Of a DNA stretch of 11,474 nt, positions 1 to 11,474 are shown in pieces. How positions within the stretch are numbered: the stretch's first letter is position 1; every line of letters starts with the position of its first letter. A program made the translations under genes and the position numbers. The notes beneath the pieces were generated by a model. It made no database searches. It saw nothing but the letters and a program-made list of their open reading frames with translations, and was not told where the DNA came from. Source of the stretch: Tubulinosema ratisbonensis (lineage: Eukaryota; Microsporidia; Tubulinosematidae). Location of the stretch: contig RCSS01000940.1 in the NCBI GenBank assembly GCA_004000155.1, forward strand, positions 1-11,474, given 5' to 3'.

Positions 1-210
1 ATCAGAGAAAAATTCCAAATCAAGAAATATAACAAAAAACATTAAAGCAAGAATTTTAGAATAAAGACCTGTTCAAAATCTTTGTTTTTTCAAAAAATAA
101 GCATATTTGCTAAAGAAAGAGATAAAAAGATTTGTTGCCTTAAAAGATAAAATTATCTATGAGATAAATTAATTTCTAAAAATTTAGAAATAAAAAATTA
201 AAATTTATTT
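1..210. other. Intergenic 3' flank with small hairpin
   Basis: A+T-rich sequence downstream of the minus-strand gene that stops at 211. A short inverted repeat at about 172-191 (ATTTCTAA ... TTAGAAAT) could form a hairpin in that gene's 3' UTR. At the left edge two open stretches run off the window: plus strand 1-45, ending in TAA with a Lys-rich 14-residue tail, and minus strand from an ATG at 42 with a hydrophobic start. Neither can be supported as a gene from so few codons. Confidence 0.35.
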
Positions 211-951
211 TCATCCTCGACCAAAAACACAAAATCCTATAAAGCAATCCTCATATTCTTTTAACTCTCTACAAACATTATCAGATGAAAACCACTTCTC
301 CTTAAAATACAACCAATCATAAACCTTATTAGGCTTATAAACAAACACAGAACAAAGAAAATAATTCAAAAAAACTGTGTTTTTCTCATCCAAAAAATTT
401 ACATCTTTCAAAAAAATAGGATTTTTAAAAATTATGATAAAATTTGCCATCAAAATATTTTTATCTTTCAATTCGGTGGTAATATTTGTTTTAAAAAATA
501 TTTGTGTGAAAGGTGTTGCGTACATTTGGTTGGATTTTTCTGTAAGGAATAATTGTGAAGCTATGTGGGATACTTTGGTTAGTGGTGAATTGAATTCTAA
601 CCCTTCTTTTTTACATAAAGTGTAACAAAGTGATTTTAATAAAATACTAGGACCACTCTCTGTTTGTAATGGGGTATACGAAGTGTTATCTAAAATTTCT
701 TTGATAAAAGAAGGGTCATTTAAGAGATCACATTCTTTTTTTGAGTATGCTAAACATTTTTTTACAAGCGAAATTGTATTTTTTAAATATAAATCAAATA
801 TGTTTTGGGTTATTGGCACTCCATCCACAAATTTTAATGGAAAAATGAATGCGTTATTGTTGTCTATGTTTCTTTTTCTTTTTTTGAGATAGTAGATATA
901 TGATATGATGAGTATGGATATGGAGGCTATAAGTGTGATTTTCAGGTACAT
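211..951 (-). CDS. Single-pass membrane protein of unknown function, paralogue of 1401-2096
   Basis: The 246-residue product is not a family I recognise. Residues 5-22 are a hydrophobic membrane segment followed at once by a basic cluster (KKRKR, 23-27), which by the positive-inside rule would place the C-terminal part in the cytosol. The rest is soluble, with several Cys and no known catalytic motif. Residues about 169-205 (FIIIF, PFLK-like, then an LNYF stretch) align with residues about 159-200 of the divergent neighbour at 1401-2096, and both share the N-terminal anchor, so I infer distant paralogy. The first ATG is used because the membrane segment begins directly after it. A motif AC(A)C-T-CTCCTT lies about 31 nt upstream. 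Codon use is A/T-ending like the other genes here. It could equally be a spore or host-interface membrane protein; no evidence decides this. Confidence 0.75.
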   Translation of the reverse strand: MYLKITLIASISILIISYIYYLKKRKRNIDNNNAFIFPLKFVDGVPITQNIFDLYLKNTISLVKKCLAYSKKECDLLNDPSFIKEILDNTSYTPLQTESGPSILLKSLCYTLCKKEGLEFNSPLTKVSHIASQLFLTEKSNQMYATPFTQIFFKTNITTELKDKNILMANFIIIFKNPIFLKDVNFLDEKNTVFLNYFLCSVFVYKPNKVYDWLYFKEKWFSSDNVCRELKEYEDCFIGFCVFGRG

Positions 952-982
952 AGTGGTATTATATATTTCCTTAAAAGGAAAA

Positions 983-993
983 AAGGAGAGTGT
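983..993 (-). promoter_or_regulatory. Candidate promoter motif ACACTCTCCTT
   Basis: On the minus strand this reads ACACTCTCCTT, 31 nt before the ATG of the gene ending at 211. It matches 10 of 11 positions of the motif at 1362-1372, which lies at nearly the same distance from the ATG of the divergent paralogue. Such an island of C in almost pure A+T sequence is the sort of signal seen upstream of microsporidian genes. Its function is inferred. Confidence 0.4.
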
Positions 994-1361
994 AAATTAG
1001 CCAATTAAAATGTGTTTTAAAAAACAATTTTTTAATATTTTATTTATTTTTTAAAATAAAAATTTTCATGTTATTTTGTAAATTCATTTTAATTTATTTT
1101 CAAAATAATATTTTTTATTTAATTATAAAAATATTTTAATTTATTTTTTAAATTCATTTTAAGTAATTTTTAAATTTTTTTTAATTATTTTTAAATTTAC
1201 TGAAAATTAAATAAGTTTTGAATTTTTCTTATGTTTTATAATTTTTAAAAAAATTTTTTATAATAAATTATTCTAATTTATATTACTTATTTTTTAAATA
1301 CTAAAAGTTAATTTTTTCAATAAATATCATTTTTAATTAATTTTTAATGAACCAATAAAAC

Positions 1362-1372
1362 ACACACTCCTT
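1362..1372 (+). promoter_or_regulatory. Candidate promoter motif ACACACTCCTT
   Basis: ACACACTCCTT lies 28 nt before the ATG at 1401 and is the counterpart of the motif in front of the divergent paralogue. An ACCAAT element lies just upstream at 1351-1356. The assignment rests on shared sequence and spacing only. Confidence 0.4.
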
Positions 1373-1400
1373 AATTTATAAACAAATTTCTATTCACTTT

Positions 1401-2096
1401 ATGCTACTAGAAATATTAACAGTAACACTAAGCTTACTAATTTGCTTTTTTTTATTTTTCATTTACCTTTTAAAAACAAAACTATATATTCAAAATAATA
1501 ACACAGTTTATGAAAATGACAAAATAATAGAACATAACACTTTAAACAAACTAGCTAACCAATTAAAAGAGTTAATAAAAGAAGTTACCATAAACAATAC
1601 AGAAATAAATACTAAATTTTTAGTGAATATGATGGTAAAAAAAGGGTATTTTCATTGTTTATGCATTGAGTCATTTCAGTTTATGCTGTTTGAACTGATG
1701 AACACGAAAAATACTGACGTGCTTGTTAGTCTTTTTGTCAGAGGAGTGAATGATACATCAAGCATAATTGTTAAAATGCCACCTGAATTGATATACCAAC
1801 AAGACATACAGCATTCTTTAGACACTTACTTAACAAATGAGCACATAAACTTTAGTAACCATGGCTTATCAAGTATGTTCCTCATTCTGTTTATGCAAAA
1901 CACTCCTTTTTTAAAAGAAATAAACTTAGAAAAAGAAGAAAATTTAGTTATCAAAAAATATAATTTATTTAATTATTTTTTTTATAAAATTTGTTTATTT
2001 AAAAACGAAGAATATTTATTTTTAAAGTTGCATGAACTAGAAGGAAAAGAGGATTACAAAGTGGCATTTGTCATTTACAATAAATTTACAAATTAA
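1401..2096 (+). CDS. Single-pass membrane protein of unknown function, paralogue of 211-951
   Basis: The 231-residue product starts with a strongly hydrophobic segment (residues 2-24) followed by Lys (LLKTK), then an Asn/Glu/Lys-rich soluble region with no recognised motif. Residues about 159-200 (FLILF, TPFLKEINLEKEENL, LFNYFF) align with residues 169-205 of the protein encoded divergently at 211-951. With the common N-terminal anchor this suggests an old duplication. The ATG at 1401 immediately precedes the membrane segment. The gene ends 25 nt from the 3' end of the oppositely oriented snoRNA pair, so the two transcription units converge. A long T run directly follows the stop. The predicted orientation leaves the bulk either cytosolic or lumenal; the sequence does not settle it. 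Confidence 0.75.
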   Translation: MLLEILTVTLSLLICFFLFFIYLLKTKLYIQNNNTVYENDKIIEHNTLNKLANQLKELIKEVTINNTEINTKFLVNMMVKKGYFHCLCIESFQFMLFELMNTKNTDVLVSLFVRGVNDTSSIIVKMPPELIYQQDIQHSLDTYLTNEHINFSNHGLSSMFLILFMQNTPFLKEINLEKEENLVIKKYNLFNYFFYKICLFKNEEYLFLKLHELEGKEDYKVAFVIYNKFTN

Positions 2097-2120
2097 ATTT
2101 TTTTTTTATTTTTAAAATTG

Positions 2121-2180
2121 TGCATCAGATAAAAGATATCATCATGGTCAGACGACCGTCGTGATTTTATCATCATATGC
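2121..2180 (-). ncRNA. Box C/D snoRNA (downstream member), possible SSU 790-loop guide
   Basis: All four boxes are seen on the minus strand: C ATGATGA (2170-2176), D' CTGA (2148-2151), C' ATGATGA (2139-2145), D CTGA (2125-2128). The ends GCAT (2177-2180) and ATGC (2122-2125) pair as a 4-bp terminal stem. D' and C' are 2 nt apart. An 18-nt guide lies between C and D', and only 10 nt lie between C' and D. The guide contains ACGACGGT, complementary to ACCGUCGU, which I recall as part of the conserved 790-loop sequence of eukaryotic SSU rRNA. The D'+5 rule would then select the first C of ACC, as for yeast snR79. Only 8 nt match, beginning four positions from D', so the target is tentative; the box structure is not. 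In the nucleolus such an RNA with fibrillarin would direct 2'-O-methylation. The TTTT at 2114-2117 (minus) could end the transcript. Confidence 0.8.
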
Positions 2181-2189
2181 TTTTTATAA

Positions 2190-2254
2190 AGGAATCAGAT
2201 GTAAAGTGTAATCACTGGTCATTTGGTAATTCCAGTTTTAATCATCATATTCCT
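2190..2254 (-). ncRNA. Box C/D snoRNA (upstream member), SSU 530-loop guide, snR77-like
   Basis: On the minus strand this has C box ATGATGA (2242-2248), D box CTGA (2195-2198), a 6-bp terminal stem AGGAAT/ATTCCT (2249-2254 with 2190-2195), a D'-like ATGA (2219-2222) and, 3 nt on, a C'-like GTGATTA (2209-2215). The guide upstream of D' contains CTGGAATTACC, an 11-nt perfect complement of GGUAAUUCCAG, the universal 530-loop segment of SSU rRNA. The nucleotide 5 positions before D' is the A that pairs with the U of GGU. This is the position I know as yeast 18S Um578, guided by snR77 (SNORD65 in human). The C'-D interval is only 10 nt, so probably not a second guide. It is followed after a 9-nt spacer by the second snoRNA, suggesting one dicistronic precursor. 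Confidence 0.85.
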
Positions 2255-2255
2255 A

Positions 2256-2280
2256 GGGGTTCAGTTTTTATTTATTTATA
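2256..2280 (-). promoter_or_regulatory. Candidate snoRNA promoter: TATAAATA and ACCCC
   Basis: Upstream of the first snoRNA on the minus strand are TATAAATA (2273-2280), about 20-26 nt before the predicted 5' end at 2254, and ACCCC (2256-2260), 2 nt before it. The C run resembles those directly before the ATGs at 2513 and 3840, which suggests that protein and snoRNA genes share an initiator-type signal. I infer transcription start near 2254-2258; the polymerase is not established. Confidence 0.45.
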
Positions 2281-2373
2281 TATTTAAAGGGTTATAGTAA
2301 AAAATGTTTTTATTTTTTTTTAAACTTAAAAAATAATATTATAATCCTTTAATTTATTTGATATTTTTTTTAC

Positions 2374-2490
2374 ATTATTTACTTTTAAATAAATTATTTT
2401 TTATATTATTTATTTTTAATTAAATTTATTTTTTGCATTGTTTATTTTTATTTAAATTTATTTTTTAAATTATTTTTATTTAATATTTTA
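2374..2490 (+). repeat. Tandem repeat, three units of 31-32 bp plus a partial fourth
   Basis: Units lie at 2374-2404, 2405-2436, 2437-2468 and partial 2469-2490. Units two and three match at 28 of 32 positions (both have TTTATTTTTA, then TTAAATTTATTTTTT nearly intact); unit one is slightly more divergent. The array sits between the snoRNA promoter and the uL13 start and ends about 20 bp before the uL13 CCC signal. It may be plain A+T minisatellite drift or may provide promoter spacing. Confidence 0.55.
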
Positions 2491-2509
2491 AAAAAATTAA
2501 AAAATTTTA

Positions 2510-2512
2510 CCC
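2510..2512 (+). promoter_or_regulatory. CCC start signal of the uL13 gene
   Basis: CCC directly abuts the ATG at 2513, within about 150 bp that otherwise contain almost no C. This is the CCC-type motif reported immediately upstream of microsporidian start codons. It supports the chosen start and implies a 5' UTR of almost no length. Confidence 0.6.
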
Positions 2513-3112
2513 ATGCACCCTGAAGAAATAATCATTGATGGTACAAACCATATTGCTGGAAGATTAGGCTCAGTTATAGCTAAGAAATTATTAGAAGGAA
2601 AGAAGGTTACAGTCTTGTGTGCTGAAGCTATNAAACTTACAGGACCAATTCACAGAAGAAAGCTTTCTTACAAGTATTTNCTTGACAAAAGATGCATTGT
2701 AAATCCAAGAAAAGGACCTTTCCACTACAATCAACCATCTAAGTATTTTATGAGAATCACTAAAAAAGGAATGTTACCTCATAAAATCAAGAGAGGAAAC
2801 AATGCTTTTAAAAATTTGACNGTTTTTGATGGTTTTCCTGAAGAATTTGTGGATAAAGAAATAAGTGTCTGTCCTGAAGCATTATTGGAATATAAGGCTA
2901 ATCCTATTAGAAAGAGTTCTACTTTAGGAGAGTTACTTTCTTGTTTTGGATGGAAATATGCTGATATTACAGAAAAATTGAAGAATAAGGTTCTTGGAGT
3001 AATACAAAGTAATAATAAGAAAGTAGAAGAAAGAAATAAAAGAGTAGAAGAATTCATGCAAACAAAAGAATTTCAAAAATTATTTACCAAAGAATTAGAA
3101 AATTATGAATAA
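2513..3112 (+). CDS. RPL13A: 60S ribosomal protein uL13 (RPL13A / Rpl16)
   Basis: The 199-residue product matches eukaryotic uL13 along its length, which is also typical (about 200). Visible landmarks are the N-terminal [20 protein letters not shown] (residues 8-27), the [12 protein letters not shown] block (68-79), the RGNNAF and VFDGFPE region (94-110), and [16 protein letters not shown] (137-152), the last being the family signature TLGxLxxxxGWKY. The charged C-terminal helix is eukaryote-specific. uL13 is a structural protein of the large subunit, assembled in the nucleolus. The ATG is fixed by homology and by the CCC directly before it. Three ambiguous bases (2632, 2680, 2821) all fall at third codon positions (ATN, TTN, ACN; the last is Thr whatever the base). 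The TAA is followed by repeated AATAAAT, a possible poly(A) signal overlapping the stop. No intron is needed. Confidence 0.96.
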
Positions 3113-3309
3113 ATAAATAATTTTTTATTTATAATTTATTTTAAATCTATTTTTTTATTAAATAATAAATTATTTTTATTAAAATGTTAAATAATTTTAT
3201 TTATTTTATTTATTTGTTTTTTTCTTAATAATAGATTTAAATAAAAACTATCTTTGACATAATAAAAAAAGAAATATTATCAAAAATTAACATTAATGCA
3301 AAATATAAT

Positions 3310-3430
3310 AATAATCTTTAAAAAAATTTAATTTAGCAAAATATATTTTTAATCTTTAAATTGTGATGTAATTTACTCATTTATCATAAAAAATTTTATT
3401 TTTCTAAATTAAATATTTTTAAAGATTATT
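3310..3430. repeat. Inverted repeat, 27-bp arms, 67-nt loop
   Basis: The left arm 3310-3336 (begins AATAATCTTTAAA) and the right arm 3404-3430 (ends TTTAAAGATTATT) are reverse complements at 26 of 27 positions, with one further pair possible at 3309/3431. The loop contains GTGATGTAATTTACTC. No target-site duplication or transposase is visible, so it may be a MITE-like remnant, a chance structure in low-complexity sequence, or a transcribed hairpin. Confidence 0.5.
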
Positions 3431-3835
3431 AAAAATAAAAATATTATTAAATTAAATTAAAATCTATTTTTGTTTAATTGTTTAATAAAAAAGATTTATG
3501 TGAAAATTTTTGGATATTTAAAAAATCTTTTTTTAATTAAATTTTTTATAAAAAGAGAACAATTCTAAAAATATAAAAAATTATTTAAAATTGATAAAAT
3601 ATTTTTTAAAAGGATAAATTACTTTTAATAAATTGATCAAATTAATAAAAAATAAATTAAATAAATAAATTTACTATTTTAATACTCGAATCTAAAAGAA
3701 GGAAATGCTATTTCTTAAATTGTAAAATTGATTTTAATTTGTTAAATTGGGAATAAAATTTTATAATTTAGGAAAATAATTTTTGAAAAAGAAAAAATCT
3801 ATCAAAAAAAAATATTTAAGAAAATTTTAAAGAAA

Positions 3836-3839
3836 CCCC
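3836..3839 (+). promoter_or_regulatory. CCCC start signal of the kinase gene
   Basis: ACCCC directly precedes the ATG at 3840, matching the arrangement at uL13. It supports this ATG as the start and a near-leaderless mRNA. Confidence 0.55.
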
Positions 3840-4928
3840 ATGGAAAATTACGAGAAACTTTTTTCCGCTTTTGAGTTTGTTGGGTTTATCAACAAAGAAG
3901 CAATGTCAAATGTGTACAAATTACAGCACAAAAAGAGTAGAAGATATTATGTGCTAAAAGAAGTGTTCTTAGAGTTTAAGGAGGACATTTTATCAATTAT
4001 TTCTGAGAGAAGTTTAGGTAGCATGGATTTACAGCATCCCAACCTTATGGGATACATGAGTATTGTTGTTTCTACCAAGATTGAAGAAGTAAAAAAGTTT
4101 CGCTTGAAAGAAAGTAAGTCAAATGTTAACAAAGAAATTTTAAAAAATTACGGTATCAATGCAAAATATTGGAATAGGCCCAATTCAACATTAACCAATG
4201 ATTCAGTTGATAAACAAATTCAATTCTGCGCTAAATTTAATGAAAGTATTTATGATCCTAACGAAGAAATTTCAATACAAATTGACGAAGAAAATGAAAA
4301 TAATGTACGATTACAAAAAAAGAAAAGGAAACCTTCTTTCAAAATAGCAAAAACATGTGAAAATTACATCTTAAGACACGACCTTGGTACAAAATTTTAC
4401 CATTACTTGATTACCCGTTGGTGTAATTTTACTTTAAATGACTTTATTTGCGCAAGAAATGAGTATTTGTTCAATAACCATGAAATTAAAGATGAACTTT
4501 TAAATGAAATGGTAAAAGAATCTTTGATTGGTAAAGAAGTCAACTCTAATTTTATTAAAGAAATAATGTATGGTATTTTTCATGGTGTTGCTGCTTTACA
4601 TTCATGTAAAATAATTCATGGTGACGTTGTCTCAAAAAATATTTTTTTTATTGAAAATTTTGTACCTAAATTAGGTGATTACAGTGATTCATTTTTTGGA
4701 GATTTTCCTTGTGAAAGAAAGGATATAAAAATGTTAGGAGAGCTTTATTTGGAAATGCTTGTTCCTTTCCTTACGGTAAATGAGAAATTTCATTTTTTTG
4801 AAGATGTTTTAAAAAATAAGTTTCCTTCTTTTTTTGATGAGAAATTCCCTAAGGAAAAGAAAATAATTCAAGAATGTTTCTTAGCTAATAAGAGAATTCA
4901 TGATATTCTTTTATTATTTAATAATTAA
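3840..4928 (+). CDS. Divergent protein kinase (eukaryotic-type fold) with large insert
   Basis: In 362 residues the kinase landmarks are in order. The Gly-loop is degenerate (residues 15-27, one Gly left, ending VYK). The beta-3 lysine is K40 (YVLKE) and the likely alpha-C Glu is E56, ten residues before HPNL (66-69). The hinge is near 187-202. The catalytic loop is HGDVVSKN (260-267), with Asp262 and Asn267 kept but the HRD Arg replaced by Gly. The metal-binding Asp is D280 in GDYS (DFG changed to DYS), then the DIKMLGELYLEML helix (295-307). Residues about 87-180 form an acidic insert with a basic KKKRK (160-164) between the beta-4 and beta-5 positions, where eIF2-alpha kinases also carry inserts; that link is weak. 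No APE motif is evident. Catalytic Lys, Asp, Asn and Asp remain, so it may be active. Substrate unknown. The start is supported by the CCCC before it. Confidence 0.85.
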   Translation: MENYEKLFSAFEFVGFINKEAMSNVYKLQHKKSRRYYVLKEVFLEFKEDILSIISERSLGSMDLQHPNLMGYMSIVVSTKIEEVKKFRLKESKSNVNKEILKNYGINAKYWNRPNSTLTNDSVDKQIQFCAKFNESIYDPNEEISIQIDEENENNVRLQKKKRKPSFKIAKTCENYILRHDLGTKFYHYLITRWCNFTLNDFICARNEYLFNNHEIKDELLNEMVKESLIGKEVNSNFIKEIMYGIFHGVAALHSCKIIHGDVVSKNIFFIENFVPKLGDYSDSFFGDFPCERKDIKMLGELYLEMLVPFLTVNEKFHFFEDVLKNKFPSFFDEKFPKEKKIIQECFLANKRIHDILLLFNN

Positions 4929-5500
4929 ATGTGTAATTTAAAAANATTTAGGATTTATTAATTTAATTAGTTATTAAATCTATAATTTGGTAAAAAATAA
5001 ATTATTATTTTTTAATTAAATATAAAAATATAAAAAATAATAATTTATTTTTATTACAATTTTTTTTAAAAAATACATATTATTGTAACCCTAAGATTTT
5101 TCTAGAAAAAAATCTAGATAAAAGGAATATATTAAATAAATGACTTCTTTTCTTTATGTATTCAAATAATAATAATAAAAACAAATTTAATAAAACCACA
5201 AATCAACAGATTACCACAATATTTTAATCCTTAAAATAAATTTGTATAAAATTTTATATTTATATTATTTTTTAACAGAATCTACCTAAACAGTAGCTTT
5301 ATGCTATCAAAGAAGATCTCCTTAAGAATAATTCATCTTTTAAAATCTTTTTTGATGTTTTTTTTGTTAAAAGTAAGTAAAAAATAAAAAATTATTTTTA
5401 AAATAAAATAATAAATTATTATATTTTTTTTAATATTAAAAATGAATAAAGAATCTTTTTTACAAAAAAGTCTTTTATTAAATATTTCTTATTTAAAATT

Positions 5501-5639
5501 TTATAAATCCAATAAGTTTATAATTGTATCAGTTTCATTTAAAAAACTTAAGATTTTTGCTAAACTTTTTTTAAAATCTTTACATTTTTCCTAATGAATG
5601 TTCTTTGGAGTATTGTTTTATTTCTTTTAAATGATCTAT
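5501..5639 (-). pseudogene. Possible decayed gene end, unknown family
   Basis: On the minus strand about 19 codons (IDHLKEIKQYSKEHSLGK, then ATG TAA) from about 5638 continue in another frame for 28 codons (KCKDFKKSLAKIL onward) to a TAA at 5501-5503. The frame switch lies in an A run near 5585-5590, as a one-base indel would give. Further upstream both frames are stopped. The residue mix is protein-like rather than the N/K/I/L-only translation of random A+T sequence, but no family is recognised and chance cannot be excluded. Confidence 0.22.
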
Positions 5640-6065
5640 AATTTATTTATAAGGTTTTTTTTAGGTTTATCATATTTTATAAACACAACAATATAACTTA
5701 ATTTAAGTGTAAATAAATAAGAAATTAAAGTAATTTTTTTTATATTTCTTAATTTTTTCTGTTATGACTGAACATAAAATAATTTAGAGTTGCAAATCTT
5801 TTTTACTGCTTTAAATACATGTTTATGTGAAGGTTATAGCTTAAAATAAATTTATTTGACCTTTCTCTTTTTATGACTGTTATATATAAATTTATAACAT
5901 AAAGCACATAGGTTCAAACCTCAATGATTATTTTTTTCAATTTAATTTAGTATTTAAAGAAAAAATGGATAGACTTATGTTTTTTTACGCTCAGAATAAA
6001 AACTTAATTAATCTTTTAAACAATCTTTAAAGTTTATTTACTTAAATCTCCTAATTACAGGTGCC

Positions 6066-6079
6066 TATCCTTAAGGATA
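6066..6079. repeat. Perfect 14-bp palindrome
   Basis: TATCCTTAAGGATA is a perfect palindrome and is relatively G+C-rich for this region. It could be a protein-binding site or part of a small RNA hairpin; no gene adjoins it. Confidence 0.5.
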
Positions 6080-6314
6080 TAGCAATAATATTATATTGAT
6101 GTACTGTTTTAAATTATGTTTTAATATCTTTAATTTTTATTGACTTATATAAAAAGGATACTTAATATATTTTATTAAAAACTTATTTAATCTTTGGATT
6201 CTAAGATTAAAAAATTATAAATTAAATTACTTAATAAATCTTTTGTTTATTCAATAAGACAGAAAAGAATACTTTATAATCATTAAATTTTTTTTCTTCA
6301 TTTGGTTTTATAAA

Positions 6315-6363
6315 TAATTGAAAATTAAGATTTTATAATATTTAAAATCTTAATTTTCAATTA
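6315..6363. repeat. 21-bp perfect inverted repeat with 7-nt loop
   Basis: The arms 6315-6335 (starts TAATTGAAAATTAAG) and 6343-6363 (ends CTTAATTTTCAATTA) are exact reverse complements around a TAATATT loop. The arms are not simple AT alternation, so this is well beyond the small hairpins common in such sequence. Possible roles: terminator-like or small-RNA hairpin, MITE core or cruciform. No gene borders it within 800 bp. Confidence 0.7.
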
Positions 6364-6659
6364 GTATATTGTTAAATACCACTTAAATAATTAATGTAAG
6401 TATTCAATTTATAGAAGTTACAAAGAATAAAGAAATAAATTAAATAAAAATAAAATATTTTACTGAAAAAATACCATTTTATATATTATTTATTGTAATG
6501 ATTTACCTTTTATTGTTTTATTAAATAAAAATATTTCATATAACTATTTTATCTTTCTTTTTTTGATTTGCATTTACTTAATTAGTTTTGGTGGTCTTTC
6601 TGCTCTACTTGTTTTTTTAAAATAAAAATGATTTCTTTAATGTATCCTCATTTTAAAAC

Positions 6660-6945
6660 TTAATCTTAAATGCATTTAAATAAGCAATATTTGGTATAAT
6701 TCTTTTAAAAAAATGCTTATCAATCTCTTTTACTTCTTTATGACATCTTCCAGAATCTTAAATATATCTATTAATCTTATTGTTCTTATAAAAAAATTTA
6801 TTAAAAGTTATTTATTTGCTACTTTTTTAGTTTCAAAAATATCGACCACCTATATATATTATAAAGATAGCGAATGACTAAGAGGATCTAAAGTTCTTTT
6901 GTAATCAGTCACAATAACAAATTGAAAAATTTGCAATATTTATAA
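6660..6945 (-). pseudogene. Possible decayed coding sequence, unknown family
   Basis: One minus-strand frame gives VIVTDYKRTLDPLSHSLSL before a stop near 6861, then VVDIFETKKVANK before another. A different frame nearer 6750-6655 gives 34 residues beginning DSGRCHKEVKEIDKHFF before TAA. The use of Asp, Pro, His, Cys, Gly and Arg is unlike translation of random A+T sequence and suggests an interrupted gene, perhaps of a mobile element. No domain can be named with confidence. Confidence 0.22.
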
Positions 6946-7149
6946 AAAACAAGTGCAAAATTTAAAATTTTTTAAAAATTAGTATATTTAGTTTTTTTGT
7001 ATTTTTTAAATAAGTTTATGACTAAAAAATTATAATGTCAAAGGTAATGATAACTTTCTTTTTAATTTCATTAAAAATTGATTAAGATTATTAAAAATTA
7101 TTAATATACAAGTTAAAAATTTAAGGAGAAAATTAACTTTTAATTAAAA

Positions 7150-8105
7150 CTATTTATTCTTAAAGAATAAAAGACCTTCTAAAATAGTGGCCTCAAATCT
7201 AAGATTAAAGGTTTCTTGATCTTCTTGTTGTAAAGGAGGCAAAATTGAATCCTTTGCGCTTATTAAACAATCTAGTGCTTCTTTCCATGTTTTAGGCTTT
7301 AAATTTAGTCTTTGCCATTGAACTATAGATTGAATAATTTCAGGCAATCCGTACTCAGAACTTTGCTCGCTTTGATCGGACCTTACAGTTATTGATTTAG
7401 GATTCTTATATCCCGTGTACGCTTTTCTAGCAAAACAATCGAAAATTAAAAATAAGATAGCATTATTAGTTAAAGCTCCAAACTTTTATTAATAGCACCA
7501 CATATTTCTGTAATTTCTAAGTTTGAAAGCCATTTATTTTGATTATTTCTCCTATATCTTATGTATCGCCTTGTTTTATTAGCCAAATATGATTGAGTAC
7601 CATTAAATTTAAATTTGGCATCGAAACGCAATTCAGATTTAAGTTCTGTTATTTTCTCTTTAAGTTCGGAGACTGAAAGTTTATCTAAATCAGTCACGGG
7701 CTGTCTTGCTTTTTTAGATCCATTTCCTGTTCGTGGTGTTGTTGATACGAATATCCTATAAGTAGGTTTGAGCTTATCTTTTGTTTTGTGTTCTGCAGAA
7801 TGTGCTTGAGTTTGTTTTGGTTTAATGGTTTCTTCCTTTTGTTCTACTGCATTTTCAACGTGCGATTTTGTCAATTCACTACAAGCAGGTAGTCTTTGAT
7901 TTAAACTAGTAGATTGGTTTTGTTGATAAAAAATAGGTTGCTCTTTTATAAAATTAGATACTATCATTTCGATTGAAAGGGGTTGTCTACTTCTTTCTGA
8001 ATCACAAATTTGCGGTTGCGTTTCTGGATTTTCTACTCTTTCTTTATCTTCTGATCCTTGATCGTCTTCAGATGCCGAAAATTGTTTATCACTTGGATTA
8101 GATCT
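7150..8105 (-). pseudogene. Helical-domain family member, frameshifted and 5'-incomplete
   Basis: The family is unrecognised, but this is clearly homologous to the products at 8106-8648 and 9710-10816. Reading leftward, the frame is open from 8129. It gives an acidic linker of over 40 residues before the Met at 7967, more polar linker, then the domain start (LSVSELKEKITELKSELRF) and EITEICGAINKSLEL, and stops at TAA 7470-7472. Shifting by one base at 7472-7475 restores the family sequence at once (LTNNAILFLIFDCFARK), continuing through VQWQRL, EALDCLISAKDSILP and ILEGLLFF to the TAA at 7150. One missing T in a T run explains the break: sequencing error, true pseudogene, or -1 frameshifting. 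The Met at 7967 has CCCC 11 nt upstream and could be the start, but the coding-like sequence before it suggests the real N-terminus was lost at the ambiguous base 8106. Confidence 0.7.
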
Positions 8106-8648
8106 NTTAGAGATCTTTCTACAGATAATCTAAGAATTAGAATAAGCGCTTTCAAAGCTAGTCCATATTTCAACAGAAAATTGAGAGTTGAAAGAGATTT
8201 ATATGAAAAAATATTTCAAATGGAGGAATTTTTAAAAACTGAAAGAAAACTTTTGGAAATTCCAATCCATTTAGAAGACATTGAAACTATTTGTTCAAAA
8301 ATAAAACAATCTCAATTAGGACCTAGTCCGAATGACATTCTTTATTTAATTTATACATGTTTTGTTACCCAAGCATTTAAAAGATTTAATAATCGAAAAT
8401 TATACGCAAAAGCATGCATATTAAGTTTAGAACAAGAAAGCGACGTGTTTTATGAAGAAGACATGTTGATTTCCTTTGATATATGGAGAAATCTAAGATT
8501 TAGATGTAATACATTTGATCAAGCATATCACCGTTTAATGGTTGCAAGAAATTTGATTTCTCCTAATTTAGAAGGAATTATGTCTGATTTATTCGATCTT
8601 CAGTATGAGTACAAAATGCTAGAAGGATTGCGATATTTTTTCGATTAA
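8106..8648 (+). CDS. Helical-domain family member, 5' end missing
   Basis: About 180 codons of family-type sequence follow the ambiguous base at 8106. They give LRIRISAFKASPYF at the domain start, then EDIETICSKI, the hydrophobic NDILYLIYTCF, DIWRNLRF with the fixed-spacing AYHRLMVARNLISP, and MLEGLRYFF before TAA at 8648. No family ATG precedes it; the frame left of the N is antisense to the minus-strand copy and stops at 8052-8054, and the first in-frame ATG is a third of the way into the domain (about 8220). So this is a 3' fragment joined head-to-head to the neighbouring copy. Composition is like the other members. Function unknown: soluble, probably all-helical, with no signal peptide visible. 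A mis-joined contig would explain it as well as a real inversion. Confidence 0.7.
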   Translation, partial: XRDLSTDNLRIRISAFKASPYFNRKLRVERDLYEKIFQMEEFLKTERKLLEIPIHLEDIETICSKIKQSQLGPSPNDILYLIYTCFVTQAFKRFNNRKLYAKACILSLEQESDVFYEEDMLISFDIWRNLRFRCNTFDQAYHRLMVARNLISPNLEGIMSDLFDLQYEYKMLEGLRYFFD

Positions 8649-9709
8649 ATTGTTTCTTCTGATGTATTAATAATTATTATTGGAGCGAAAATAATAAAAT
8701 AAAAAATTAATTTATAATAAAAAAATATGATAAAGTAATCTTTTTTCCTAAAAACATAAAAGAAATCTTGATCTGTTTTAATTTATAGATATCAAAAAAA
8801 TTTTATATAAAAGACAGAAGATTTTAGTATAAAATCTGTTTAATTAATGAACAAATAACTTAAAATAAACATTTTATCACTTTAAGCTATTTTTTTTATA
8901 AATTGTTACAGCAGTTTTTATTATAAAACAAAATTTTTATATTTTATTACTTGATCTTAAATATAAATGCAAAAATTTATTATAGATTAAATAAAAATTT
9001 TTTTAAAAGTCATAAAAATTATTTTTTACAAAAAATACAACATATAATAGTTATAAACATTTTAAGAAGAACAAAATTTTAAAACAAAGTTTGTTATATT
9101 ATTTTATAAAAAAAGCCTAAAAACTTTTTTTCAGTTGATAACATCTTTATGTTAACTATATATAATAAAATTATTTTTATTTGATATGCTGTTAAAAGAA
9201 GACAATTTTATTATTTTGTGGCTTTATTTTTGATTGTAAATTAGATAAAAATCGTTCCTTACATTAAACTATTTCTACAATTATATAACAAGAGTTTATC
9301 ATCGATTTTTATAAAAATAAATATTTAGGGTAACTCATTAACTTATTAATCTTACTTGTTAAAGGTTTTTGATTTCTTTATCATTGAGTTTTCAAATTTT
9401 TTCAATAAAAATGTGATTTTTTATCGCAAAAAATTTGTATACTTTTTAGCTTGAAATTTCAAATAGTTATTTAAATTGGTTAGATATGCTTATAAACAAA
9501 ATAACTAGAATGTCAATTCTAGCACAACCTCTTTTGTATATAAAATTTTGAAAGTATTAAATCTTTTAGATTTTGAAACTTAACTTGACTATTACCTTAT
9601 CAGAAAGAACACATTTACTACATTAAAATTAAAAAAATTTATTACAGAGGTTCTTAGTCTGTATAAAAGATAAAAAAAGTATTTAAATTAAAATTGTCTA
9701 GCCCTTATA
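8649..9709. other. A+T-rich intergenic region, possible upstream relic
   Basis: No gene is supported. A 7-bp-stem hairpin CTAGAAT-GTCA-ATTCTAG lies at 9505-9522. From about 9483 the frame of the following gene continues upstream with coding-like stretches interrupted by several stops, including TAA at 9671-9673 and 9689-9691, which may be the eroded front of that gene or chance. The interval otherwise shows only poly-A/T runs. Confidence 0.35.
9702..9704 (+). promoter_or_regulatory. CCC signal before the gene at 9710
   Basis: CCC occurs 5 nt before the ATG in otherwise almost C-free sequence, consistent with the start signals at 2510 and 3836 and with use of this ATG. Confidence 0.35.
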
Positions 9710-10816
9710 ATGTTAGAAGGATTGTTATTTTTATTGCAATCAATTCAACCTTCTGATACAACTTTGTTTGAAGATGACAAAAGTTTAACTAAAAGAAGCT
9801 GGCCTCATCCGAATTTTCTCCAAAAGGATCTTAGAATAAATAATCCGCCCAGAATACTTACACTTCCAGCTAAAAAAGTTACAAGAAGTTTTGATTCAGA
9901 AAACTTTATTTGGAAAATAACTGAGTTACCTCTTATTTCTAAAAAAATTATAAAAAATAAAGAAGATACTATGAACGAACAAGATGTATTATTTTTGGAA
10001 AATACTGTGGTTGGAAAACAGATGGAAGAAAATCCAAACTTATGCGGTGAAGTTCAGTCGGTATCCTTAAAAGAATTAGAAGTTGACGAAGAAGAAAATC
10101 AGGAATCAAGTCAAACACAAGATGAAACCAAAGAAACCAAACAACTTATGGACTCATTAAAAACACAGGGAGAAGAAAATGATTTGCAAAAAAAAGACCA
10201 AACAATTGTCAAAGATTCACAGATACCAATTGGTAATGAAACTCCCCAAGCTAGTTTAGAAGAAAAAAGTAAAATGCAAATGTCTAAGAAAATTGAATTT
10301 CTTAAAACTTTGATATTTAAAGCGAAAGAACATGATTTTCTAGTTAGATCTACTACGCAAAAAAACCTTTTAAGAAAATATTCTAAATCTGTGCGAAATA
10401 AAAATAATTTTGATTTAACTAACAACGAAATTGAAAAGATATGTAATCTTGTTTGCCGTGAATTGGCTGACACCTCCAAATCTATTTTCCTATTTGTTCT
10501 TTTTCTTCTTTTTATGAACGATAAATCTAAAATTTTCGAAGTTAAAAATCCTAATTCACAACAGAGTGAAGTAGCTTGTAAAAGTGAATCTTTTAAAGAT
10601 ACTTTGGAAAAAATAAATAAATCAATACAAGAATGGAAAAGACATAAATTTGACTTATCAGACGGAGAGACTGCTTTTTCATGTTTAGTATTAGCTAGAA
10701 ATTCTTTTTTGCAAAGTATTAATGAAAATTCTACTGAGATTGAAGATATGAAATACCAATTAGAAGTATTGCAGGGACTTATGGTTTTATTAAATAAAGG
10801 AAGTAAAGTTTACTAA
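9710..10816 (+). CDS. Helical-domain family member, full-length copy
   Basis: The 368-residue product is the only uninterrupted member of the local family. Residues 1-10 (MLEGLLFLLQ) resemble the end of the family domain (MLEGLRYFF, ILEGLLFF in the other copies). Residues about 11-190 form a polar linker with an acidic, Gln-rich stretch at 119-170. Residues about 190-363 are the family domain: KIEFLKTLIFKAK, NNEIEKICNLVCRELA, the hydrophobic SIFLFVLFLLF (258-268), W309 in QEWKRHKF, FSCLVLARNSF (323-333) and VLQGLMVLL. No enzyme motif, zinc ligands or clear signal peptide is visible. The in-frame stop at 9689 and the CCC at 9702 favour ATG 9710, yet the N-terminal echo suggests the start was recruited inside an older two-domain protein. 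Function unknown; a lineage-specific expanded family is the best inference. Confidence 0.75.
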   Translation: MLEGLLFLLQSIQPSDTTLFEDDKSLTKRSWPHPNFLQKDLRINNPPRILTLPAKKVTRSFDSENFIWKITELPLISKKIIKNKEDTMNEQDVLFLENTVVGKQMEENPNLCGEVQSVSLKELEVDEEENQESSQTQDETKETKQLMDSLKTQGEENDLQKKDQTIVKDSQIPIGNETPQASLEEKSKMQMSKKIEFLKTLIFKAKEHDFLVRSTTQKNLLRKYSKSVRNKNNFDLTNNEIEKICNLVCRELADTSKSIFLFVLFLLFMNDKSKIFEVKNPNSQQSEVACKSESFKDTLEKINKSIQEWKRHKFDLSDGETAFSCLVLARNSFLQSINENSTEIEDMKYQLEVLQGLMVLLNKGSKVY

Positions 10817-11474
10817 AATAAAATCTAACAATTAAATTTTTATGTAAAGTATTAACATCAAAATTTTTTATTTTATGAAAAACAAATTTCTTTTGTCTGA
10901 TATATTAAAAGTTTTTGTAAGTGATTTTTTTTAATATTTTTGCTATTAAAAAATTATTTGTTTTTCAGAGAATGGATTCTAAAAAACCAACCTTTTAAAA
11001 AATTATAATACATATTAGTTTTGTTTGCTTCTTATTAAAGACGCTCTTTATGATATCAAACAACATAAAAATTCATCGTAGAAACAAGAATTTAGGTAAT
11101 ATTGGTTATATTTTTTAAAAGAAAAATAGATTTAAGATCTATAAAATCATTTAAAAAATCAAATTATATTTAATTTAAAAGACTTAGATTTATTTAACAA
11201 AATATTATTTAGAATAATGTGTATTTTTGGTAAAAAAAGATTAAAAAAATATTAGTTATCTAATCAATCTAGGGGTTTAAATTTAAATAAAAATACTATC
11301 ATAAAATTTATATTTATTCTGTTACTATTGAAAAGAGGAGTTTAAAATCAAATTGTAAAAATATTAATTATATACAAAATTTAAAATATAAAATTATAAT
11401 TTTATAATATTTTTCAAAGATAAAACTTTTTTACAATATATTAAATTCTCATAAACAATATAAAAATGGAGATT
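10817..11474. other. Intergenic A+T-rich tail of the window
   Basis: No gene is supported. It holds an intron-like interval GTAAGT (10917) to CAG (10968) that would join a 24-codon frame starting at 10875, a CTAGGGGTT at 11269-11277 that repeats the nonamer near the snoRNA promoter, and an ATG at 11466 running off the edge with no C-run signal in front. Confidence 0.4.

Follow-up and report, generated by a model that had tools for sequence, protein, structure and literature searches.

An 11,474-nucleotide (nt) stretch of the microsporidian Tubulinosema ratisbonensis (contig RCSS01000940.1, positions 1 to 11,474), hereafter the window, very probably harbors two small genes for box C/D small nucleolar RNAs (snoRNAs), units A and B, which carry one guide each and form a dicistron on the minus strand between positions 2122 and 2254. 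The identity of both units as box C/D snoRNAs is settled, because the guides preceding their D' boxes are antisense to eukaryotic ribosomal RNA (rRNA). The predicted targets are a U of the small subunit (SSU) rRNA corresponding to yeast Um578 in case of unit A and a C of the large subunit (LSU) rRNA corresponding to yeast Cm2959 in case of unit B. SnoRNAs are already known in microsporidia, and the pair is a clear, fairly ordinary example of a known RNA kind.

Organization of the Two Units

Read in minus-strand direction, unit A (2254 to 2190) consists of AGGAAT, the C box ATGATGA (2248–2242), 19 nt, the D' box ATGA (2222–2219), 3 nt, the C' box GTGATTA (2215–2209), 10 nt, the D box CTGA (2198–2195), and TTCCT. 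Unit B (2180 to 2122) consists of GCAT, the C box ATGATGA (2176–2170), 18 nt, the D' box CTGA (2151–2148), 2 nt, the C' box ATGATGA (2145–2139), 10 nt, the D box CTGA (2128–2125), and TGC. Both are separated by a spacer of 9 nt, TTATAAAAA, at 2181–2189. On re-reading of the coordinates, the two minus-strand units, their boxes and spacings, and the spacer matched exactly what the initial annotation had claimed. The C box RUGAUGA and the D box CUGA are thus present in both units, as are internal C' and D' boxes, which in unit A occur as the variants GUGAUUA and AUGA, respectively.

C and D boxes are joined by terminal stems of 6 base pairs in unit A and 4 base pairs in unit B. In folding, each unit closed through its terminal stem and the final A of the D box was paired, as had been proposed; equally stable folds were obtained in 1 of 200 shuffles for unit A (z -2.65), 3 of 200 for unit B (z -2.69), and none of 200 for the whole pair (z -3.24). 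The assignment of unit A is based on boxes, spacings, fold, and a weak Rfam match, that of unit B on boxes and guide complementarity. With its 10 nt, the interval between C' and D seems to leave too little room for another guide.

Guides and Predicted rRNA Targets

Positions 3–13 before each D' box form an 11-nt guide antisense to eukaryotic rRNA, in the same register in both units. All features of a box C/D snoRNA that can be checked in the sequence are present, and the guides, which had gone unnoticed in the initial annotation, add to its box C/D assignment. The unit A guide CTGGAATTACC (2225–2235, minus strand) is antisense to SSU GGUAAUUCCAG and the unit B guide TCACGACGGTC (2154–2164, minus strand) to LSU GACCGUCGUGA. 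The rRNA set consisted of 13 contigs of eukaryotic rDNA that occur as contaminants among prokaryote records; L036, L037, L040, and L041 of these were confirmed as eukaryotic rRNA by Rfam. The SSU complement of CTGGAATTACC, GGTAATTCCAG, was found in all 13 rDNA contigs, a count that is no measure of conservation because the contigs were picked by a pattern containing GGTAATTCCAG. They were not selected on GACCGTCGTGA, the LSU complement of TCACGACGGTC, which occurs exactly in L041 and with one mismatch (GACCGTCGCGA) at the corresponding place before the sarcin-ricin loop in L033; this stretch was not found in the remaining 11 rDNA contigs, 4 of which are partly masked and several of which end early.

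The target rule (position 5 before D') leads from unit A to U578 of the L041 SSU and from unit B to the first C of GACC in the LSU. With the yeast residues Um2921, Gm2922, Am2946, Cm2948, and Cm2959 as a ruler, the target C of unit B is 2959 in the A-loop register. The five letters are compatible with three of 631 registers, of which the one at the A-loop was chosen; the other two, which do not lie at the A-loop, were set aside. An assignment of unit B to yeast Cm2948 (snR69) was dropped, since the A-loop register gives 2959. By placing U578 of the SSU and C2959 of the LSU at +5, units A and B would share this feature with the snR77 and snR73/U35 families, respectively.

Um578 is the site of snR77, HBII-135, and AtsnoR77Y (PMC8817022, PMC3511168) and Cm2959 that of snR73, U35A/B, and AtU35 (PMC8817022). 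Um578 is methylated at 90% or more in yeast (PMC5199042), and both methylations are common to yeast, human, Arabidopsis, and Dictyostelium (table in PMC8817022). Unit A and snR77/SNORD65 (HBII-135)/AtsnoR77Y are alike in C/D boxes and in the predicted site Um578 (PMC3511168, PMC8817022), and the D' guide UGGAAUUACC is common to unit A and the snoR77Y consensus. Differences to this family are the length (85 model positions in snoR77Y, 65 nt in unit A), the C'-D interval of 10 nt, and an Rfam score below the cut-off.

The contigs searched for rRNA of the species itself comprise 236 contigs with 4,116,903 bases, including the window (C236), and represent part of the assembly, with some stretches masked. 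Neither the RF02542 profile nor GGTAATTCCAGC nor, with up to one mismatch, CAGCMGCCGCGGTAA gave any match in them; the sole match of GACCGTCGTGA was the unit B guide itself, and AGTACGAGAGGA with up to one mismatch was found at a single, mismatched place versus 8 for the reversed control, which is no evidence of rRNA. The rDNA of the species probably lies outside these contigs, themselves only part of the assembly.

Putative Transcription Signals and Proposed Mode of Action

A putative transcription signal of the pair, AACCCC, is located at 2256–2261 and a putative TATA-like element, TATATAAATAAAT, at 2270–2282, both on the minus strand. Upstream of unit A, TATATAAATAAAT is followed by 9 nt and ACCCC, the latter situated 12 nt before the C box. 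The identical 13-mer precedes a further snoRNA on contig C26 (see below), where 7 nt and ACCCC follow, the latter 14 nt before the C box, and in case of another snoRNA, on contig C199, ACCC is found at 23 nt. The pattern searches that found these two RNAs did not require the ACCC signal. Of 77 open reading frames (ORFs) of at least 150 amino acids, 24 have ACCC in the preceding 30 nt, versus 843 of 34,497 intergenic 30-nt windows, and CCC-like signals have been described before microsporidian genes (PMC10815200). In unit B, the 60 nt that precede the C box contain no CCC. ACCCC before unit A and its absence before unit B fit a single dicistronic transcript, and together with the short spacer they lend indirect support to the dicistronic precursor suggested in the initial annotation. 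One transcript of RNA polymerase II type may thus carry both units. A CCC-type signal of microsporidia, GAAACCCC, is also found immediately before the ATG of a divergent protein kinase gene at 3840–4928 (plus strand; Pfam Pkinase, 34.6 bits).

From these features we infer the following course. Most likely a single promoter, located upstream of unit A, would drive transcription of both units; after trimming, the terminal stem of each would close and C/D and C'/D' motifs would form, to which fibrillarin, Nop58/Nop56, and a protein of L7Ae/Snu13 type would bind to give ribonucleoproteins. The D' guide of unit A would then pair with SSU GGUAAUUCCAG and direct 2'-O-methylation to the U that corresponds to Um578 of yeast (snR77 site), and that of unit B would pair with LSU GACCGUCGUGA and direct 2'-O-methylation of the C equivalent to Cm2959 (snR73/U35 site). 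Fibrillarin is encoded in the genome, as is one Nop-domain protein, for which Nop58 (190.4 bits) scores higher than Nop56 (167.7 bits). An initial, loose search revealed a single gene each for Nop-domain and L7Ae-family proteins, fewer than is usual in eukaryotes, which tend to have several; the partial contigs and the looseness of this search are the probable cause.

Chance Expectation and Alternative Explanations

A search grammar requiring a C box, a D box, a stem of at least 4 pairs, D', and C' was written after units A and B had been seen. On both strands of the window it matched units A and B only. In 3000 dinucleotide shuffles of the window a mean of 0.0043 matches was obtained, and a single shuffle contained two or more. 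Over 239,128 unmasked bases, a set with overlaps counted that includes the window, its duplicate L001, and the C26 and C199 loci chosen beforehand by pattern, the grammar matched only units A and B and the two further snoRNAs. Box patterns across the contigs exceeded their reversed controls (26 vs 5, 26 vs 4, and 13 vs 1), an excess that gives no snoRNA count because many matches resemble acidic coding sequence. The pattern TCACGACGGTCNNCTGA gave 14 matches in viral contigs. A covariance model built from units A, B, and the C26 RNA (3-row alignment; a 4-row version misplaced C199) yielded nothing new that was convincing over 253,070 bases, the next best match reaching 23.0 bits (E 0.12); since it scores C199 at 15.9 bits (E 3.7), this model is a poor detector. 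In Rfam, the best match of unit A is snoR77Y with 28.1 bits (cut-off 52, E 0.078), and unit B reaches 25.5 bits (cut-off 45, E 0.35); these cut-offs are single-family thresholds and no defining feature of the box C/D class. The weak matches agree with the assigned target sites. At its curated cut-offs, Rfam misses both units.

Several points weigh against the interpretation as a pair of functional guide genes. The guide duplexes of units A and B were tested on rRNA of other eukaryotes, and the SSU target is not the same in certain microsporidia (Nosema). The D' box of unit A is the variant ATGA. Of the check by covariance models and folding that the initial annotation had proposed, the folding part held, with closed folds more stable than most shuffles; both Rfam scores are below the curated cut-offs and non-significant taken alone. 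A check of the SSU numbering with yeast residues 541, 562, 578, and 619 found no fitting register in L041, and therefore the unit A site is derived from the connection to snoR77Y and from the U at SSU position 578 of L041. A second Nop-domain protein (Nop56) was not found in the partial assembly, and the one L7Ae-family protein (125 amino acids) scores alike as Snu13 and Nhp2, which are not distinguishable.

If the Rfam E-values are considered alone, and given that the grammar was written after the units had been seen, boxes and stems might be regarded as having come together by chance in intergenic DNA rich in A and T. However, none of the 3000 shuffles contained a tandem pair or a guide matching the rRNA set, and both guides match rRNA in one 3–13 register; a chance origin of the pair is very unlikely and hardly credible. 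The variant D' box of unit A and the reduced genome would be in agreement with decaying snoRNA genes that were formerly functional and have lost expression or methylation, but the C, C', and D boxes, the stems, and the 11-nt guides are intact and a promoter-like signal is present, which makes decay quite improbable. Expressed C/D RNAs could also pair with rRNA without methylating it, as folding chaperones or with other targets, since non-methylating roles are known for some C/D snoRNAs, e.g., cleavage for U3 and acetylation for snR4/snR45 (PMC5464676). Little probability is given to such a role here, as 2'-O-methylation is known at both sites, the target lies precisely at D'+5, and fibrillarin is present. 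Apart from function, units A and B might be two separately transcribed genes, each unit being complete by itself; against the 9-nt spacer and the missing CCC before unit B this seems unlikely, though less remote than the preceding explanations.

Further C/D RNAs and a Possible Half-Guide Form

Flanks were inspected for five pattern matches beyond the window (C26, C199, C48, C142, and C81), two of which are convincing candidates for compact C/D RNAs. The first, C26:9917–9965 (minus strand), matches snoU25 in Rfam with 27.2 bits (E 0.0045, cut-off 50), and U25/snR56 is assigned to Gm1428 (PMC8817022). The second, C199:5789–5832 (minus strand), carries the guide TAGATGACGAGG with a 9-nt match in the LSU of L040; its best Rfam match is the archaeal-type sR5 (23.8 bits, E 0.0083, cut-off 40), not SNORD38. 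Judging by its guide, it probably addresses Gm2815 of yeast, the site of snR38. In case of C26, the rRNA set of 13 contigs does not contain the guide 11-mer. Due to this missing match, and to the match of 9 nt only with sR5 as best Rfam family in case of C199, the target sites of both RNAs are less certain. The remaining candidates were unconvincing: C142 matched SNORD65 with 20.2 bits (E 0.3), Rfam gave nothing for C48 and C81 up to an E-value of 2, and the grammar scan matched none of the three.

In units A and B, C26, and C199, the D'-C' linkers measure 3, 2, 2, and 3 nt and the C'-D intervals 10, 10, 9, and 8 nt, respectively, with 12–19 nt on the C-D' side. With such short linkers and intervals, guiding seems to be confined to the D' side. 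Archaeal C/D small RNAs (sR5 and sR9 in Rfam) are of similarly small size. They usually carry two guides of about 12 nt, unlike the RNAs described here with their C'-D side of 8–10 nt. It is tempting to speculate, though doubtful, that C/D RNAs of this lineage have been reduced to a uniform half-guide form, in which the C-D' side guides and the C'-D side has shrunk, as in all four RNAs found. If so, the RNAs that were kept would address deeply conserved rRNA sites only. Their expression would start from CCC-type promoters like those of ordinary genes, partly as dicistrons, and they would represent a minimal natural system of C/D guides.

Relation to Known snoRNAs and Genomic Context

Ten snoRNAs are listed for Encephalitozoon cuniculi (PMC6461891), and additional non-coding RNAs of T. 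ratisbonensis were identified with Anncaliia algerae data (PMC6675976). Belkorchia et al. 2017 reportedly described a set of microsporidian snoRNAs, which likewise stems from a reduced genome. Among the titles and abstract openings searched, none dealt with this pair, which is not claimed to be unpublished. The pair suggests that a strongly reduced parasite keeps guides for widely shared rRNA 2'-O-methylations, one per ribosomal subunit, and it pinpoints the exact rRNA nucleotides predicted as methylated. A search grammar for microsporidian genomes may be built from an ACCC signal followed by a compact C/D unit with one guide.

The draft assembly comprises 7,555,974 nt in 952 contigs (GC 23.2%, N50 12,152; PMC6675976), and A+T ranges from 73.6 to 80.3% across 23 stretches with few N. 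The pair is flanked by the divergent ribosomal protein gene uL13 (2513–3112, plus strand) and by a convergent ORF of unassigned family (1401–2096, plus strand), and the ORF list contains no ORF of at least 60 amino acids between these two. The product of uL13 is 71% identical to that of A. algerae and 82% to one further protein, and its second-best PDB match is 6zu5, presumably the Paranosema locustae ribosome. Both the microsporidian setting and the divergent ribosomal protein gene had been recognized in the initial annotation.

The ORFs at 211–951 (minus strand) and 1401–2096 have hydrophobic N-termini and share 30% identity over 82 amino acids (E 0.002 in a 7-protein comparison); neither gave a Pfam family above the cut-off. 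One weakly similar ORF family is formed by 7150–7347 and 7470–7967 on the minus strand and 8058–8648 and 9710–10816 on the plus strand, with BLASTP E-values of 1e-8 to 1e-3 for 9710–10816 against each of the other three. Near 8106, at the turn, the sequence has an N. Like one gene in two pieces, both ORFs on the minus strand correspond to consecutive parts of 9710–10816.
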